From NCBI GenBank assembly GCA_002887195.1, contig PJAB01001030.1, positions 1 through 18,050 on the forward strand: a DNA stretch of 18,050 bases, in the 5' to 3' direction. Position 1 is the stretch's first letter. Each line of letters starts with the position of its first letter. Source of the DNA: Chrysochromulina parva. Taxonomy: Eukaryota > Haptophyta > Prymnesiales > Chrysochromulinaceae. Below, piece after piece: positions 121-7,133 of this stretch. The notes below the pieces were generated by a model. It was not told the origin of the DNA and ran no database searches. It was given only the letters and a program-made list of their open reading frames with translations. Position numbers and translations under genes: made by a program.

Positions 121-3100
121 AGGCGCTGCTGAGCACCGAGCGGGACGACGAGGCATTCGACGAGCCGCCCGAAAAGGTGCTGTGCACTGAGACGGACGAA
201 TCTTGGCGCATCTGGCGCATCTGGCGCAATCTGAGCATGCTGGCGGGCTGTGGGAAGTGACTCTGATTCGAATGCAGCCGATCGACGAGCACAAACTTGT
301 CGGCCACGTCCCGGATCGCAATCGAGCCCCCCGGCCCAGCGGGGAGCGAAAGAGTCCGGAGCAGCGCGCCCTCGTGAGCGCCCACGCTCGGCGCCAAGAG
401 TGCGGCGCACTCGCTTGGATACATCTCCGCGAGGGCGCGGCACGCGGCGTGGCACTGGGAGCCCGTCACGACGCCCGTCCCCTCCCGATCGAGCCAGAGG
501 AGGAGCGCGAGCAGCTGCAGGTGCACCTGGAAGAGGCTGTTCAGGCTTGCGTCCTGCAGGCTGATCCGGTCGAGTAACGGCCGGTACGCTACCTGTGCGG
601 GGAGGGGGCGGGGCGCCGTGGTGAGCACTTGCATGCAGGGCAGGGAGGTCGAGTAACGGCCGGTACGCTACCTCCGTCGACGCGTGGGGCAGCGCGACGG
701 CGGTGGCGCCCGAGACGGCGCCCGAGACGGCGCCCGCGACGACGCCCGCGACGGCGCCCGCGACGGTGCCCGCGACGGCGCCCGATTTGGCGCCCGAGAC
801 GGCGCTCGACAAGTCTGGTGGCGGATCGAAAGAGCTGAGCGAGAGGAGCATGCTGATCGCCTCGGGCATGAGCGGCGACTTGAGGCGCGCGAGCTGCATG
901 AGGAACCTGTGCACGTGCCTGGCCTCGGTGTGAACGTGCCTGGCCTCGGTCGTCGCGCTCGAGAAGGCGACCTCGGCGGCGATCAAGCTCATCTCGCCCA
1001 GCGTGAGCACGCCGCGCGCCGGCTTTCGAGGGCCGTTACTACGGGGTTCGTCACCACGGGGTTCGTCACTACGGGGTCTACCGTCGTCGCCGCCGCTGCT
1101 GTCGACGCTCACCCCGCCGTTGGCGCTGGCCTCGTCGGCTGCTTCGAAGGCCTCGAGCAGCTGTTGGCGGTTGGCGAGCCACGCGCAGCACAGCTGGTGG
1201 GTGCGCTTCTGTTGCTTACGCAGTAGACGAACGGACTCGGCCGAGAACGATTCACAATAGAGTGCGCCAAACTCGAAGGCGTGCCAGCAGCCGATGCTGT
1301 CCGGTGACGGCGGCGCGGCGGCGTTCGTGTCCGCGCTGCCCACCACGGCGCTGATCTGATCTGAGGGGTGGGGGCTAGCTGTGCGCCGGCTGCCCTCCTT
1401 GCCGCTGCCCCCCGCCATCTCCCCCTCGTTCGTCCCCGAGTCATCCGCTGGCGGGTCGAGCAAGTTGCGGCTGCTCCTGGTGCTGCGCTGCATGCCAAAG
1501 CCCATCGTCTTCGCGCCAGGTGGCAGCCCTTCGCCCTTGCCCTGGCCACCCCCGAGCGCCGTGTTGAGCATCGGCGGCTGCCTATCGCCCAACGCAGCGC
1601 GGCTCAACATGGGCGGCCGTCCGCCGCCCAAGCTCGACGGCGGCGAGATGGCCGAGCTCGCGTCCTCGTGGTCGTCGTCGTCACCCACCTCGGACGGTGT
1701 GCGTGTGGGAGGGTCGTCATCCTCGCGGGAAGAGTCGCCACTGCCAACCGAGCGGGAAGAATCGCGGAAGAGGACGGAAACAAACGACTCCCTCTCTGTC
1801 GTCTCCGGTGGCGGCGGCTCGTACTTTGGAGCCACCTGCCCGATGAGCGAGGCCATCAGAGGCTTTCAGAGCCCATCAGAGGCCATCAGAGGCCATCAGA
1901 GGCCATCAGAGGCCATCAGAGGCCATCAGAGGTACGGATGGAGTCACCTGAACGCCTTTCGGGGGCACGGAGCCGACAGCGCCGATCTGCACGATCGCGC
2001 CGCGGTTGGTGTGATTGCACGCGTAATTGGACGCTGAGAAGACGGTTAAGCACAGATGGCCGTCGCCGTAAGGCCAGTCGTACCTGAGGAGGGGAGGGGG
2101 GGGCGCCGTGGTGAGCACTTGCATGCAGGGCATGTCCTCGTTGAGAAATGCGTCGTACCCGTTGTGCGCGGGTTCATGCGAGCGGATGAGGAGCTCGAAT
2201 CCTTCTTGGCGCAGGAAGTTGGCACACACGTCGGGGCCGAAGAGCATGCCCGTGCCCCGGCCCTTGTTGAAGCACGAGGTGCCCTCACGCTGGTCAGATC
2301 GGATCGGATGCAGCGCTTCGTCAGTAGCCATCAGTAGCAATCAGTGGCCATCAGTGGCCATCAGTGGCCGTCAGCAGCCATCAGTGGCCATCAGTGGCCA
2401 TCAGTGGCCATCAGTGGTCATCAGTGGCCATCATCTCACCTCAACGTTGATCGGATCGTTCCAGAGCGCTGCGTTGATCGGCCACATGAGTTCCTGCTGC
2501 TTGATGATGGACTCCATCTTCTCGCGCATCGCAGGATGAATGAGCACCTATTTTGGGCGGGACTCGTATCATTAGTCATTAGTGGCAATCAATGAGTGCC
2601 TATTTTGGGCCGGACTCGTATCATCAGTCATCAGTGGCCATCAGTGGCCATCAGTGGCCGTCAGTGCCCATCTTCTCACCTTTTTGCCCGGGCTCGCGTA
2701 ATTGGTCGCGTTGACGACGTACCTGATGAGGGAGCCAATCAACGGCCATCAGGGGGCAATCAGAGGCAATCAGAGGGTCTGATGAGGGAGCCAATCAACG
2801 GCCATCAGGGGGCAATCAGGGGCAATCAGAGGGCTCGCGTGGACGACGTACTGCGCGCGCGGTGCGGCCATCAAGTGTCATCAGTGGCAATCAGGCGCAA
2901 TCAGACGTACTGCGCGCGCGGTGCGGCCATCAGCTTCTCCATCGTCATTATCTCATCGACGCCTCCATGCAGCACGAGGACCTTCTCGTTCACGACCGTC
3001 GCGATCGGAAGCTGTGCGAAGACGCGGCTGAAGGCGTCGTACATGTCCTTATCGTACTTGGCCGTGCACTCCTGCATGAAGCCGTACACCGAGTGCACCG

Positions 3101-3850
3101 ACCGCTCTTCGTGGTTCCCCCGGTTGAGGAAGACGGATTGCGGATAGAGCTGCTGCAGCGCGAAGAGCGTGAGCGAGATCTCGACGCCGCAGTCGCCGCG
3201 GTCGACAAAGTCGCCGTTGAACAGGTAGCAGCGCTCAGGGCTCGGGAAGCCATGCCGGCGGAAGATGTGCATCAGGTCGACGAACTGACCATGCAAGTCA
3301 CCTACGATGCTCAGGCGCGCGCCCTCGGGCACCTTGAGGCGGATGGTGCAATTCGAGGCAATTAGAGGCAGTTCGAGGCAATTAGAGTTCGAGCGGTCGG
3401 CGGCACCTTGAAGTGGACGACGTTGGGCAACTTCTCGAGCAGCCGCTCCTGCCGCTCGAGAAGCTCGGCCGCCATGGCGCGCGGCGGCAAGCCGCGCCGC
3501 ACAAAGGCCGCTATGATGTCCATCACCGTGCTCTCGGAGATGTCGCCCGGTGGAAGCACCTTTGGCCCGAGGTAATTGTCCTCCGGCCTCGAGGCGACGC
3601 TGTCACTGCTGCTCCTGATCGGCTCGTTGAAGCTATGAGCGAGGCTCGTGGGTATCAAGCTGTGGATGTCGCCGAAACCCGGCTCGCTCTCGAGCATCTC
3701 GATGAAGGCGAGCAGCTCGGCATGCAGGTCTGCTGCGCTCGCGGGAGTAGTGGTGACGGCGGCGCGCGGTGCGTCCGCGGGCGGTGTCGGGCTTTGCGAT
3801 GACGACTTTTTGCTCGAGATGCTGAAGCCCTTGGCGAGTTTGTTCAGCAT
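1..3850 (-). CDS. PPP-family Ser/Thr phosphatase, RdgC/PPEF-like (8 exons, 3' end outside window)
   Basis: Metal-dependent protein phosphatase. Exons on the minus strand: 3850-3407, 3332-2911, 2722-2680, 2547-2440, 2289-2159, 2083-1948, 1835-672, 593-<1; the joined frame stays open for about 1013 residues. All PPP signatures are present: GDLHG (D160, H162), GDFVDRG (D189), RGNHE (N221, H222), LHGG (H270), LWNDP, IRSHE (H377), FSASNY (398-403). The full metal-ligand set suggests an active enzyme. The N-terminal 148 residues are Ser/Pro-rich, then helical (LLERQERLLEKLPNVVHF), as upstream of RdgC/PPEF catalytic domains. The C-terminal part has two degenerate EF-hand-like stretches (LLEAFEAAD...GVLTLGEM, split by about 35 residues, and LDREGTGVVTGSQ, Gln at the last ligand position) plus several in-frame tandem repeats. 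The ATG at 3850 is the first after an in-frame stop at 3898-3896. The PPEF label is inference; PPP membership is firm. Confidence 0.88.
569..673. repeat. 27-bp perfect direct repeat flanking intron 7
   Basis: Positions 569-595 and 647-673 are identical over 27 bp (beginning GGTCGAGTAACGG, ending GCTACCT), offset by 78 bp. The 51 bp between them (596-646) holds the introner-like core. On the minus strand each copy starts AGGTAGCG, so the duplication supplies the 5' splice site at one end and the exon start at the other. Confidence 0.97.
594..671 (-). other. Phosphatase intron 7 (78 nt), carries introner-like core
   Basis: GT-AG intron. Removing it joins GAG to GTAGCG and gives ...STEVAYRPLLDRISLQ. 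The core at 611-638 matches those at 2101-2128 and 5397-5424. Read on the minus strand it contains CTCAC, a good branch-point match, about 30 nt before a C-rich tract and CACAG. The length is 26 codons with no in-frame stop, so a retained intron would only insert residues. Confidence 0.75.
706..813 (-). repeat. 12-bp coding tandem repeat (about 9 copies)
   Basis: Degenerate units of GCGCCCGAGACG / GCGCCCGCGACG on the plus strand. In the phosphatase frame they encode an Ala/Gly/Val tract of GAVS and GAVA tetrapeptides. The array lies in the long seventh exon, between the two EF-hand-like stretches. Confidence 0.85.
909..950 (-). repeat. 21-bp coding duplication
   Basis: Two tandem units, 909-929 and 930-950, differ at one base and encode TEARHVH twice in the phosphatase C-terminal region. 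Confidence 0.85.
1033..1078 (-). repeat. 15-bp coding tandem repeat
   Basis: About three units built on ACGGGGTTCGTCACY on the plus strand. In the phosphatase they encode RSDEP/RGDEP/RSNGP pentapeptides that interrupt an EF-hand-like loop. Confidence 0.8.
1836..1947 (-). other. Phosphatase intron 6 (112 nt) filled by 10-bp repeats
   Basis: Donor CAG|GTGACT, acceptor GGGCAG|GTGGCT; the spliced product reads KGVQVAPKYE. Eight in-phase 10-bp units at 1851-1930 (GGCCATCAGA, two variant copies) make up most of the intron. The boundary sequences 1827-1838 and 1939-1950 match at 11 of 12 positions. The length is not a multiple of three, so retention would shift the frame. Confidence 0.8.
2084..2158 (-). 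other. Phosphatase intron 5 (75 nt), carries introner-like core
   Basis: Splicing joins HNG to YDWPYGDGHLCLTVFSASNY, which restores the family spacing between RSHE and FSASNY. The core at 2101-2128 is identical to 611-638 and has one difference from 5397-5424. An exact 8-bp direct repeat (GTCGTACC on the plus strand, 2077-2084 and 2152-2159) spans both splice sites. The length is 25 codons without an in-frame stop. Confidence 0.8.
2290..2439 (-). other. Phosphatase intron 4 (150 nt) with 10-bp repeat array
   Basis: Donor GAG|GTGAGATG, acceptor CTGACCAG|CGTGAG; joins ALWNDPINVE to REGTSCFNKGRG, the expected LWSDP-to-RG stretch of PPP enzymes. About ten units of GGCCATCAGT and variants lie at roughly 2331-2430. 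Unlike the other introns it has no clear splice-spanning direct repeat. Confidence 0.8.
2548..2679 (-). other. Phosphatase intron 3 (132 nt) with duplicated 3' splice region
   Basis: Donor AAAAAG|GTGAGAAG, acceptor AAAATAG|GTGCTC. Segments 2539-2590 and 2591-2642 are a 52-bp tandem duplication with about six mismatches, so the acceptor motif CCCAAAATAGG occurs twice. Using the upstream acceptor runs into a stop, so the downstream one is assigned. 10-bp CATCAGTGGC-type units lie at 2621-2670. Confidence 0.75.
2723..2910 (-). other. Phosphatase intron 2 (188 nt) with internal copy of exon junction
   Basis: Donor GCGCA|GTACGTC, acceptor CATCAG|GTACGTC; joins MAAPRA to QYVVNATNYASPGKK, a 43-nt exon at 2680-2722. 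The intron contains two near-identical 56-bp units (2723-2778, 2779-2834) rich in CAATCAG and CATCAG motifs, and a 29-bp exact copy (2845-2873) of 2904-2932, the end of the upstream exon plus the donor. The assignment rests on frame and splice consensus. Confidence 0.65.
3333..3406 (-). other. Phosphatase intron 1 (74 nt)
   Basis: Donor TTCAAG|GTGCCG, acceptor CTCAAG|GTGCCC; splicing gives NVVHFKVPEGARLSIVGDLHGQ, a typical PPP start. An exact 10-bp direct repeat GGCACCTTGA (3328-3337, 3402-3411) spans both sites. The interior is about four 10-bp units of RRTTMGAGGC type. Confidence 0.8.
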
Positions 3851-4215
3851 GCCGCCCGCAAGGCCGCTGGCGTGCAATGGGTGCAAGTTTCGAGCCTAAA
3901 CTTATCTTCCCCGAAAAGCGCATGACCCGGGGAGAAGAAGTCACTTACAAATGCACGGCACGTCAGTCATGCACAGTCGAAAAAGTCAGCTACCGAAATC
4001 GAAATCGCTTTGCTCACGAAATCACTGTCCGTTACAATTCGTGTAGTGGATAGACGGTTTGAGACATGTGCATCCCTGACCCCAGTCACAAGAGCATACA
4101 TGTAGCCCAATACATGTAACCAACGTCGTCTGCTGACATGAGGTTTTTGTGGTGAAGCGAACTCGCGGTGAGTTTTCGCGCGAAGCATTGTGAACCTCTC
4201 GCTAGCGAGCCATCC
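3851..4215. promoter_or_regulatory. Divergent promoter region, phosphatase / RecQ
   Basis: The 365 bp between the two divergent ATGs is less GC-rich than its neighbours and holds no credible ORF. Visible elements are a CCAAT box (4107-4111) between two TACATGTA palindromes (4097-4104, 4111-4118) and the palindrome TTCGCGCGAA at 4175-4184, which contains an E2F-like TTTCGCGC. Transcription start sites cannot be placed. Regulatory roles are inference. Confidence 0.5.
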
Positions 4216-7133
4216 ATGGACGACGACGATTGGCTTGACGCCGCCGCACTTGCGCAGATCGACGCCCTGGAGCAGCATCACGCGGCTTCCTCGCAGGGCT
4301 CCTCCCAGATGCAGAGCCCACCGCCCGCGCCGCTGCCTCCAGCACCAGGCCCTCCTCAAGCTCCGGACGACTTGAGCGCCCCGCTTTCGCACTACTTTGG
4401 CTTCAGCGCGCTCCGCGGTGGGCAAGAGGAGGCCATCCGCGGCGTCCTCTCTGGCCGCGACGTGTGCGTCTACTGGCCTACGGGCCAGGGCAAGTCGATT
4501 TGTTATCAGCTGCCTGCGCTGATCGCACGCAAGGTGGCGGTGGTCGTAACGCCGCTCGTGTCGCTCATGGTGGACCAGTGCGCGAAGCTCAATCACACCG
4601 TCGGCAGCCTGCCCGAGTTTGCCGGCAGGCGGCCCGCCATCTTCCTCGGTCCGCACCAGACAGACAACGCGGCCGAGGAGCGCGCGCTGCGCGGCGAGGG
4701 CGCACGCGTCATCTACTGCTCACCCGAGAAGCTGATGATGAGCAACCTGCTGACGCGGCTCGCCGAGCTGCACGCGCGTGGGCTGCTCGTCTTGATCGCG
4801 ATCGACGAGGCGCACTGCCTCTCTGCTTGGGGTCACGACTTCCGACCGGAGTACAAGGAGCTGGGCGTGCTGCGCCAGAGGTTGCCTTCGGTGCCGCTGA
4901 TCGCGCTGACTGCGACCGCGGTGCCTTCCGTGCAGACCGACATCCAGGGCGTCCTCGCGATGCGCCAGCCCATCGTGCTGCGTCAGTCGGCCTTCCGCGA
5001 CAATTTGGCGATCACCTGCCTCAAGAAGCTCGGCGGGCTGGGCGCCGATCTGCAACCGCTCGTCGAGGCGTTGCAGCGGAGTGTGCGCGTACCCCCGGCG
5101 AGTCGCAAGTCGACGATCGTGTACGCACCCACCGTCGGCCTGTGCCAGCAGGTGCACGCCCACCTGCAGCAGCGCTGCCCTGGGCTTCAGGTCGAGCTCT
5201 ACCATGGCTCACTCGACAAAGGCGCGCGCGAGACGGCGCACTTGAGCTTCCTCTCCGGTAAGGCGAGCGTGATCGTCGCGACGGTTGCGTTTGGTATGGG
5301 CATCGACAAGCCCGACATCCGGCACGTGGTGCACTACGGCGCGCCCAAGACCATCGAGGATTACTATCAGCAGGTGCGTGAGCTCCGCCCAATCCGCTGC
5401 ATGCAAGTGCTCACCACGACGCCCTCCCCTCCCCACAGATTGGGCGCGCTGGGCGCGATGGGGCGCCGTCGGAGTGCACGTTGCTCGCGAATGATGCGGA
5501 CTTCACGAGGTATGCGAGCGACTTCTATACGGAGAAGCTGCCCGAACATGCGAAGCAGCACATGCTCGCCTCGACGGAGCGGCTGCGCGCCTTTTTCAAC
5601 CAGCAATGCACGTGCCGCTGGGTCGAGCTGCTCGGCGCCTTCGAGGAGCGTGCCCCCTTTGCGAGCTGCGGCAGCTGCGACGTGTGCAAGACGCGCAAGG
5701 AGCATGCCGGCGACCTCGAGCGTGACTTCTCGGCCGAGGCACGCATCTTGCTGACCGCGGTGCGCCGCCTACCCGGCAAGTCGTGGACGCACCTCGAGAA
5801 GGAGCTCGGCGATAAGCACTCGCCCGTCGCCGCGCTGCGCGCCGCCCTGAAGGTCAAACGGAAGCTCGAGGTGCTCAAGGAGTTCATGACGCCCCTGGTA
5901 AGCAAAGGCTTGCTCGCGAAGCGAACCGTCAAGGGAAGCTATGCTGCCTTTGAGGTCATCGACCTGCCCCCCGCGGGCGCACAGGCCCTCACGCAACTCG
6001 AGAGAGGCGGTGGACCTCCCCTGCTGCTACCCGTGCCGGAGTTGGTGCGGCGAGCGGATCAGAAGGCGGCCGAGGAGGCGGTGGCGTTGCGCGCGCAAAT
6101 CGAGGCGGCACTCCAGGGCCACGGCGTCGACGTGTCGCTCGTCCCCGAGGCCGAGCTACAGCCATATGCCAACGGCGGGCCGGTGACAGAGGCGATCCTA
6201 GCGTACACGAACACGATCGCCGGCTGGCGTGCTCGAGGTCTGAATGCTCGGGCGGACGCACACGAGGAGCTCCTCGAGCGCATCCGGGCGTGGCGCCAAG
6301 CCGAGGCTGAGAGCCATCGGCTGGCGCCCGCCTCCGTGCTGCCCGACCACGTGGCCATGAGCCTCGTCAAAGTGAAACCGACTCAGCTCGAGGCGTTGCA
6401 TGCACTCGGAGTGCGCGTCGCGGGCGCCGCTGCTCTGCTTGGAGTGCTCGATGCATGGCGCGCCGAGCACGCTGCTGACGTTGGCGCGCCCGGCGGCGCG
6501 GCCGGCAGCCAGCCCTCGGCCGACGCGGGCGCTGGCGCGCCCGGCGCCCAACACGGCGCGAGTTCGGCAGCCGGCGCCGCGCCCGGCGCCCAATACGGCG
6601 CGTTGCCGCTCCCTCTCGGTCCGTACCAGCCGACGACTCCGTGGGCGTTGGCCAAGCCGTCGGCAGCTGCGGGCAAGAAGCCCGCCGCTTGGGAGGAGTC
6701 GTGGCGCCGCTTCAGCGCGGGCGAGCACCCCGAGGTGATCGCCATGAAGCAAGCGAGCGGCAAGCCCATCCAGACGAGCACCGTGGTGGGGCACGTGCTG
6801 GGCGCTCTCACGCAGGGACGCCCCGTCGACCTGCGCAGGCTCGCGAGCGCGGTGCCCGCGCCGACCATGCAAGAGTGGGAGGCGCTGCGGGAGGCTGAGG
6901 ACGCGGCGCGAATGGACGTGGTCGCCGACGACAAGGCGCAGATGACCGTGCTCCTTCGGACCTTCCTGCCCGCTGCCGCCAGGGAGTTTAACGAGCGCAC
7001 GCCGGCTGAGAAGGCGATGCTAGAAGGGTGGTACGGCCGTTGCCACTGGTACATGGCGCTGCGCCGCGTCGGTTACGCGCCGCCGCCCGCGGCGTCGGGC
7101 GAGCCCGAGGCGAAGAAGGTGCGCGTCGGGTGA
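4216..7133 (+). CDS. RecQ-family ATP-dependent DNA helicase (950 aa, one intron)
   Basis: 3'-5' DNA helicase of genome maintenance. Exons 4216-5373 and 5439-7133. Order: acidic/Pro-rich N-terminus; DEAH helicase core with Walker A PTGQGKS (88-94), DEAH (197-200) followed by CLSAWGHDFRPEY, TATA; helicase-C with motif VI QQIGRAGRDG (385-394), created only by splicing; RecQ zinc site (C445, C463, C466, C469); RQC winged helix (about 480-545); HRDC-like segment (about 666-723, ERIRAWRQAEAESHRLAPASVLPD); Ala/Gly/Pro linker; and a C-terminal helix-turn-helix segment (about 816-870, TSTVVGHV) resembling the WRN-type HTH. This is longer than bacterial RecQ and close to eukaryotic RQC/HRDC types. The start is the ATG in CCATGGACG; the GTG at 4168 is rejected. 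RecQ is certain; the WRN-versus-BLM subtype is not. Confidence 0.95.
5374..5438 (+). other. RecQ intron (65 nt), carries introner-like core
   Basis: Donor CAG|GTGCGTGAG, acceptor CCCCACAG|ATTGGG. Removing it restores YYQQ-IGRAGRDGAPSECTLL, the invariant motif VI, so splicing is essential. The core at 5397-5424 matches the phosphatase introns. A 9-bp inverted repeat (CGCCCAATC 5386-5394, GATTGGGCG 5438-5446) brackets the core. CTCAC at 5410-5414 is the likely branch point. Confidence 0.92.

Follow-up and report, generated by a model that had tools for sequence, protein, structure and literature searches.

Results

Genes and core-bearing introns of the window

The stretch of Chrysochromulina parva DNA that we analysed (the window, 18,050 nucleotides in all) holds genes recognised by their domains as a RecQ-type helicase (DEAD, Helicase_C) on the plus strand and a calcineurin-like phosphatase (Metallophos) on the minus strand. 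Among the matches listed, the nearest named relative was Prymnesium parvum for the RecQ protein (49% identity) and Haptolina brevifila for a dynein light chain (79% identity). We take these two proteins to indicate a haptophyte near Prymnesiales; a short 18S motif gave no match in the assembly. A 28-bp core, CTGCATGCAAGTGCTCACCACGGCGCCC, is found on the minus strand in two identical copies at positions 611-638 and 2101-2128, and with one changed base, as CGACGCCC, on the plus strand at 5397-5424. These are the coordinates and sequences reported in a first-pass annotation of this DNA, and the core does lie in the sense of transcription at all three sites, as that annotation stated, despite the location of the genes on opposite strands. 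The features are listed in Table 1.

Table 1. Introns, inserts and target sites identified in the window.
Feature	Position	Strand	Remarks
Phosphatase intron, 79 nt, class I	593..671	-	Predicted donor GT from duplicated exon; insert brings branch point, pyrimidine tract and acceptor
Sense-upstream copy of 27-bp target duplication, holds the donor	647..673	-	Perfect match to 568-594
Sense-downstream copy of 27-bp target duplication, start of next exon	568..594	-	Perfect match to 647-673
Insert of the 79-nt intron: core 611-638, C-rich tract and acceptor	593..638	-	
Phosphatase intron, 75 nt, class I-like	2084..2158	-	8-bp repeat GGTACGAC at 2152-2159 and 2077-2084
Second insert kind in phosphatase gene	2845..2932	-	GATTGCC-type insert between perfect 29-bp direct copies (2845-2873, 2904-2932)
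65-nt intron of the RecQ-type helicase, flanked by YYQQ and IGRAGRDG	5374..5438	+	CCCAATCCG before the core, common to L034
Empty target site	5760..5795	+	36 bp, single in the window; doubled around a core-like element in relative P0001 (inferred from protein frames)

The rest of each intron had been described as unrelated, which holds when the introns are compared with each other but not for the 5' part of the 593-671 intron, which is a perfect 27-bp copy of the downstream exon, separated from the core by 8 bases (639-646). Repeat scoring against a mismatched-pair control found no target duplication at the RecQ intron, and the repeat of the 2084-2158 intron, with a score of 7, is not above the 99% level of that control (8). 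The CGAGGACATGCC that precedes the core in the latter intron is common to L065 and was probably derived from a donor, that is, from another copy. The window also contains an in-frame direct-repeat pair with a period of 51 in the RecQ C-terminal region (6474-6546) and, as judged by eye, GACGGCGCCCGCGAC-like units repeated in tandem close to where the phosphatase gene has its 3' end (1-170 and 700-810).

Copy number of the core in the assembly

The assembly of the window comprises 45,074,565 bases in 2,199 contigs. The 20-mer CTGCATGCAAGTGCTCACCA gave 115 exact matches across it (65 and 50 by strand) and its reversed pattern 0, while the 17-mer TGCATGCAAGTGCTCAC gave 1,657 matches with at most two mismatches, against 4 for the reversed control. 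The copy number of the core is far above chance, and the assembly-wide search that the first-pass annotation proposed thus bears out a family. An exact 19-mer of the core had no match in IMG/VR viral contigs, in a scan that may omit records near this genome.

We read 60 regions from the places of the 20-mer and 60 from those of the 17-mer (100 places listed for each). Of 160 copies, 155 were distinct and had enough flank, all of them with a perfect 17-mer and representing at most 155 of the 1,657; 94 were assigned to class I by a pyrimidine-rich stretch and an AG after the core, a loose rule that admits a few copies such as L020, 17 to class II by a GTACGT-like donor before the core, and 44 to neither. 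Many similar copies thus occur as separate predicted introns in different genes, as expected of introners (94 of class I and 17 of class II among the 155 classified). All copies read share one unit, the branch-point core. The earlier proposal of an introner-like family that has many copies, was recently active and brings its own branch point stands, and most copies read do carry a 3' splice site, but this site belongs to one subclass only.

Most class I copies take their predicted donor from a target duplication

In 73 of the 94 class I copies, the stretch that starts right after the acceptor AG had a second copy on the upstream side of the core, with a score exceeding that of 99% of mismatched pairs (cut-off score 8, n = 1,858). 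This duplication measured 9-46 bp (median 25) and began with GT in 62 of the 73 copies, with an AG before it in 31, and with another start in 11. The apparent introns were 63-99 nt long, except two of 116 and 119. No repeat above the control was detected in the other 21 copies, which include the RecQ intron and the 2084-2158 intron. In class I, the duplicated exon is predicted to give the donor, and the insert the branch point, the pyrimidine tract and the acceptor. The 5' parts of these introns differ because they are mostly copied exon.

When the two introns longer than 105 nt were left out of the 73, intron length was not a multiple of three in 49 of 71 copies, the frame was open after removal of the intron in 62, and the coding score was higher on the sense strand in 60. 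The length of the duplication was negatively correlated with that of the rest of the intron (r = -0.60), a value that is partly built in, duplication and filler being bounded by the core.

The length of these duplications bears on the cut-and-paste DNA transposon (MITE-type introner), with a fixed short duplication and inverted ends, that is known for other algal introners (PMC9860276). Duplications of 3-9 bp are given there for the earlier-described families, and the introners of Amoebophrya are described with direct repeats of 3-5 nt and inverted repeats (PMC7789003). The spread and median found here, rather than a fixed 3-9 bp, make such a transposon a very improbable source. By eye, CTG...CAG was the only terminal inverted repeat seen.

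Most class II copies take their predicted acceptor from a target duplication

The class II insert starts with GTACGTTGATTGCC... or GCACGTTG..., passes through the core and ends some way past it, and the exon stretch ending in AG on its left is repeated on its right. This is the mirror image of class I: the insert carries the donor and the duplication supplies the acceptor of the predicted intron. Fourteen of the 17 copies were above the 99% level of the control, and in those 14 the right copy ended in AG, with repeats of 8-34 bp and apparent introns of 69-88 nt. A 26-base class II pattern had 28 matches genome-wide with at most one mismatch, against 0 for the reversed control. Wherever a duplication was found, the 5' part of class I and the 3' part of class II were derived from the target.

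Core inserts that are in frame and are not introns

A core-independent scan for direct-repeat pairs around a spacer yielded 152 pairs in 284 kb (two small overlapping loci kept in) against 1 in a 9-mer block shuffle. In a slightly looser scan with overlaps removed, 70 of 169 pairs lay in confident coding sequence. Among these, multiples of three made up 5 of the 34 pairs with a possible sense GT...AG and 26 of the 36 pairs without it, which include plain minisatellites (Fisher p about 1e-6); for core-only pairs the corresponding values were 4 of 25 and 10 of 13. Of 69 coding pairs, 34 had a possible GT...AG on the sense strand and 5 on the antisense strand, and the core was in sense in 25 of 25 intron-type pairs, both counts made with one place (L027/L126) entered twice.

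In the first set of 75 copies, the 57 that bear an acceptor were 38 in sense, 5 in antisense and 14 unclear relative to the coding strand, and the 18 without an acceptor were 6 in agreement, 3 in disagreement and 9 unclear. The preference for the sense of transcription, put forward earlier from three sites, extends to the acceptor-bearing copies read, in which the two orientations are not equal, including all 25 of the stricter set.

Inspected one by one, the 13 core-only pairs without a possible GT...AG include six inserts in coding sequence that were clearly not introns (L009, L020, L027, L041, L042, L043). Their lengths of 45, 54, 42, 51, 45 and 45 are all multiples of three, they contain no stops, and two of the six (L009 and L043) are antisense to the coding strand. 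Five other rows (L011, two in L015, L016, L104) were set aside, having acceptor- or donor-like ends that may mark missed introns, as were L045 and L088, which are pairs of cores rather than an insert with its duplication. A gapped duplication test was passed by 16 of the 44 copies of neither class, several of them tandem arrays, at a high control threshold. We also rejected the idea that copies without an acceptor are decayed introns, since frame and orientation are against it. Insertion seems to be blind to splicing and to orientation, because these six inserts are not intron-like, are all in frame and include two in antisense; splicing or frame would act as a later filter. The antisense basis is two cases, and many in-frame pairs without the core are plain minisatellites.

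These inserts weigh against reverse splicing of excised introns into DNA, the route proposed for fungal introner-like elements. Class I and class II inserts do meet the exon exactly at the splice site with an intact intron end, and the RecQ intron taken alone would fit, but an exact fit is also expected from selection for clean splicing. Reverse splicing cannot yield in-frame core inserts that lack splice sites, two of them antisense, and it predicts insertion in sense without a duplication, not one of 9-46 bp. Given these duplications and the in-frame copies in antisense, we set it aside as highly unlikely.

Presence and absence in relatives

The protein P0001, 97% identical over 90% of the RecQ query, reads YYQQIGRAGRDG without the RecQ intron, as do P0002 and P0071 and, with one changed residue, P0004. 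The intron is present and read through in P0003 and P0010; P0005, in which it is missing, could represent either a transcript after splicing or an allele with the site empty. After KSWTHL, P0001 has a core-like element (ACRCSPRRLAPLPH) followed by window bases 5758-5880 again in another frame, and 5760-5795 is therefore duplicated there around an insert. The presence/absence comparison that the first-pass annotation suggested for strains, made here with a relative, gave exon insertions present in one and absent from the other at one site in each direction, for P0001 against the window and at the protein level.

The empty site also tells against minisatellite growth, in which slippage would duplicate exon and existing intron pieces with no insertion at all. 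Several arrays of target and core, such as those of L025, L042, L059 and L061, are of the kind that it would produce, but one core occurs in many loci with different repeats, and we give this explanation very little credence. Tandem arrays of a unit made of target stretch and core were observed in those four regions and in L067, with many copies in L042.

Inserts without the core

Away from the fetched 20-mers, 200 kb of flanks held 88 repeat-flanked inserts, 15 with the core and 73 without it. Many of the 73 are 10-11-mer repeats such as CTGATTGCCTC, and the non-core inserts of L015, L045 and L056 have AG|GT inside the duplication. Repeats of 10-11-mers such as CTGATTGCCTC or CTGATGGCCAC are also seen in the window at 2300-2930 and in L022, L047 and L064, often between long direct repeats; in this they are similar to what class II inserts have in their 5' part.

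The 21-mer (CCCTAA)n occurs in 18 contigs of the assembly. Nine interstitial telomere arrays were read (L056, L129-L136), the first of them chosen for short arrays, and six of the nine had flanking repeats of 17-34 bp; these scored 13.8-30.5, whereas none of 72 mismatched pairs scored above 9.5. Flanking repeats were not found at L133 and L135, which share a sequence, or at L134, where the flank was too short. The insert of L131 fits class I (83 nt) and that of L132 class II (90 nt), in L056 (62 nt, array at L056:1878-1971) and L136 (148 nt) the repeat itself contains AG|GT, and no clear splice pair was seen at L129 and L130. Removal of the stretch restored a gapless match across the junction to the TTL domain in L131 (profile 237-281 over residues 1-45) and to the IF140/IFT172 TPR domain in L056 (99-156 over 1-58); domain support was absent for L132 and L136, and for L131 and L132 the sense strand was not favoured when the coding score was taken by itself. 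Judged from their sequences, up to four telomere-repeat arrays (L056, L131, L132, L136) thus look like introns. Among the papers listed in a search of the open-licence literature, none deals with telomere-repeat introns.

Shared flanks and homology at the joins

As judged by eye, bases that precede the core are common to certain pairs of copies: CCCAATCCG to the RecQ intron and L034, CGAGGACATGCC to the 2084-2158 intron and L065, and CCACCCGTCCCTC to L028 and L050. In copies that share such bases, the distance from donor to core, compared by hand, was not equal and the register was not kept. L049 carries the end of the stretch that is duplicated at L032, as judged by eye, and the exons of L032 and L049 may be related. 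At the left join, a match of at least 3 bases to the element was found in 4 of 21 copies against 1.8% expected (p 5e-4), three tandem-repeat copies having been left out of 24 and one of the four positives, L059, also lying in an array.

Discussion

The origin of new introns is a long-standing question, and Huff et al. 2016 reportedly dealt with algal introners. The first-pass account of the three introns did not include the target duplications with their great and varying length, the mirror class with a 5' splice site of its own, the in-frame non-intron copies (two of them antisense), or the telomere-repeat and other inserts of like architecture. As the source of the inserts we lean towards fill-in repair of staggered breaks with copied filler, which we hold to be somewhat better than an even bet. 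A break or a pair of nicks would leave overhangs of some 10-45 nt, and their fill-in would duplicate the target stretch. The filler, a short copy of an existing insert with some donor flank, aided by short homology at the joins, or else telomere repeats, would be sealed in between the two target copies by a process blind to splicing. Selection would then retain spliced or in-frame products, which could become donors for more. As observed, an insert is an apparent intron wherever it forms GT...branch point...AG in combination with the target copy, and some non-core inserts take both splice sites from the duplication; the clear cases in coding sequence that lack this combination are in frame.

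Break repair is favoured by duplications, of varying length in class I, that score higher than 99% of mismatched pairs in most copies of both classes (class I, 73 of 94; class II, 14 of 17), and breaks with overhangs have been described as a source of small tandem duplications (PMC8355091). The excess of multiples of three among coding pairs without GT...AG, the six non-intron core inserts, the pre-core bases shared between copies, the homology at the left join and the duplications around telomere arrays also speak for it. Against it, the core in 15 of 88 inserts exceeds random filler, so that something favours the core, 21 of 94 class I copies, including the RecQ intron, have no duplication above the control, and the microhomology signal is modest. 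A kinship of the L032 and L049 exons would weaken the case for L032 as a donor. The enzyme and the break site are hypothetical, and presence and absence were seen in proteins at two sites.

The main rival is target-primed reverse transcription, in which a LINE- or Penelope-type reverse transcriptase would insert a very short RNA, antisense to the core and with the 3' end ...GCATGCAG, at variable staggered nicks and with 5' truncation. Duplication length does vary, there is some homology at the joins, the CTGCATGC end of non-intron copies looks more constant than the other end by eye, and the genome has at least five RVT_1 matches. A non-LTR retroposon would combine a variable duplication with one fixed end; the duplication is variable here, and the classes differ in which end is constant. 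However, the reverse transcriptases found are few for more than 1,600 copies, and the pre-core bases are shared only by some copies and so extend past the supposed RNA end. The like duplications around telomere arrays and 10-11-mer repeats would, moreover, need several RNAs. We consider target-primed reverse transcription unlikely, at roughly one chance in four, and retain break repair as the preferred source.

The introners of Symbiodinium carry the 3' splice site, whereas their 5' site comes from duplicated target (Gozashti et al. 2022, PMC9860276), and class I resembles them in its donor from the target duplication and in its many similar copies in genes. Unlike them, with their 4-bp duplications and inverted terminal repeats, the copies described here have variable duplications of 9-46 bp, no inverted ends that could be seen and, apparently, bases carried from the donor flank. 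Class II is like family 5 of Chrysochromulina sp. (TARA_PON_109_MAG_00232, PMC9860276), perhaps a related alga, which carries the 5' splice site and obtains the 3' site from the duplication; that duplication is 4 bp against 8-34 bp here (14 of 17 class II copies), and the two, compared by description, may or may not be one family. Among the papers listed in a search of the open-licence literature, none deals with haptophyte introners as judged by titles and abstract openings; PMC9860276 does report this Chrysochromulina family.

L015, L045 and L056, with AG|GT inside the duplication, are like the introners of Florenciella, in which both splice sites come from the target (PMC9860276), but their insert is a 10-11-mer or telomere repeat and not a defined element. 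As in intron gain by tandem genomic duplication in a potato gene (PMC4974935), the intron comes from tandemly duplicated gene sequence; unlike that case, a reused branch-point insert lies between the copies. Double-strand breaks are also known to receive telomere repeats, as interstitial telomeric sequences inside the genome (PMC2246262, PMC7215372); those read here differ in having duplications of 17-34 bp and, in up to four cases, forming an apparent intron.

A broader reading, which we offer tentatively and at rather less than even odds, is that introns may arise incidentally, through a single repair route for staggered breaks. Any filler with a branch point (the core, a 10-11-mer or telomere repeats) could serve, with splice sites from the overhang; no transposon would be needed, and introns could be telomere DNA.

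An insertion of 25-55 bases can, on predicted splicing, become a new intron when the splice site that it lacks comes from the duplicated target. In this one genome the mutational step can be told apart from the selective filter, as insertions that never became introns (in frame, with two of the six in antisense) stand beside others seemingly rescued by splicing. Families of this kind would probably escape surveys in which similarity has to reach both splice sites. If true, two mirror ways of making introns from one core, together with telomere-repeat introns, would tie intron gain to break repair.
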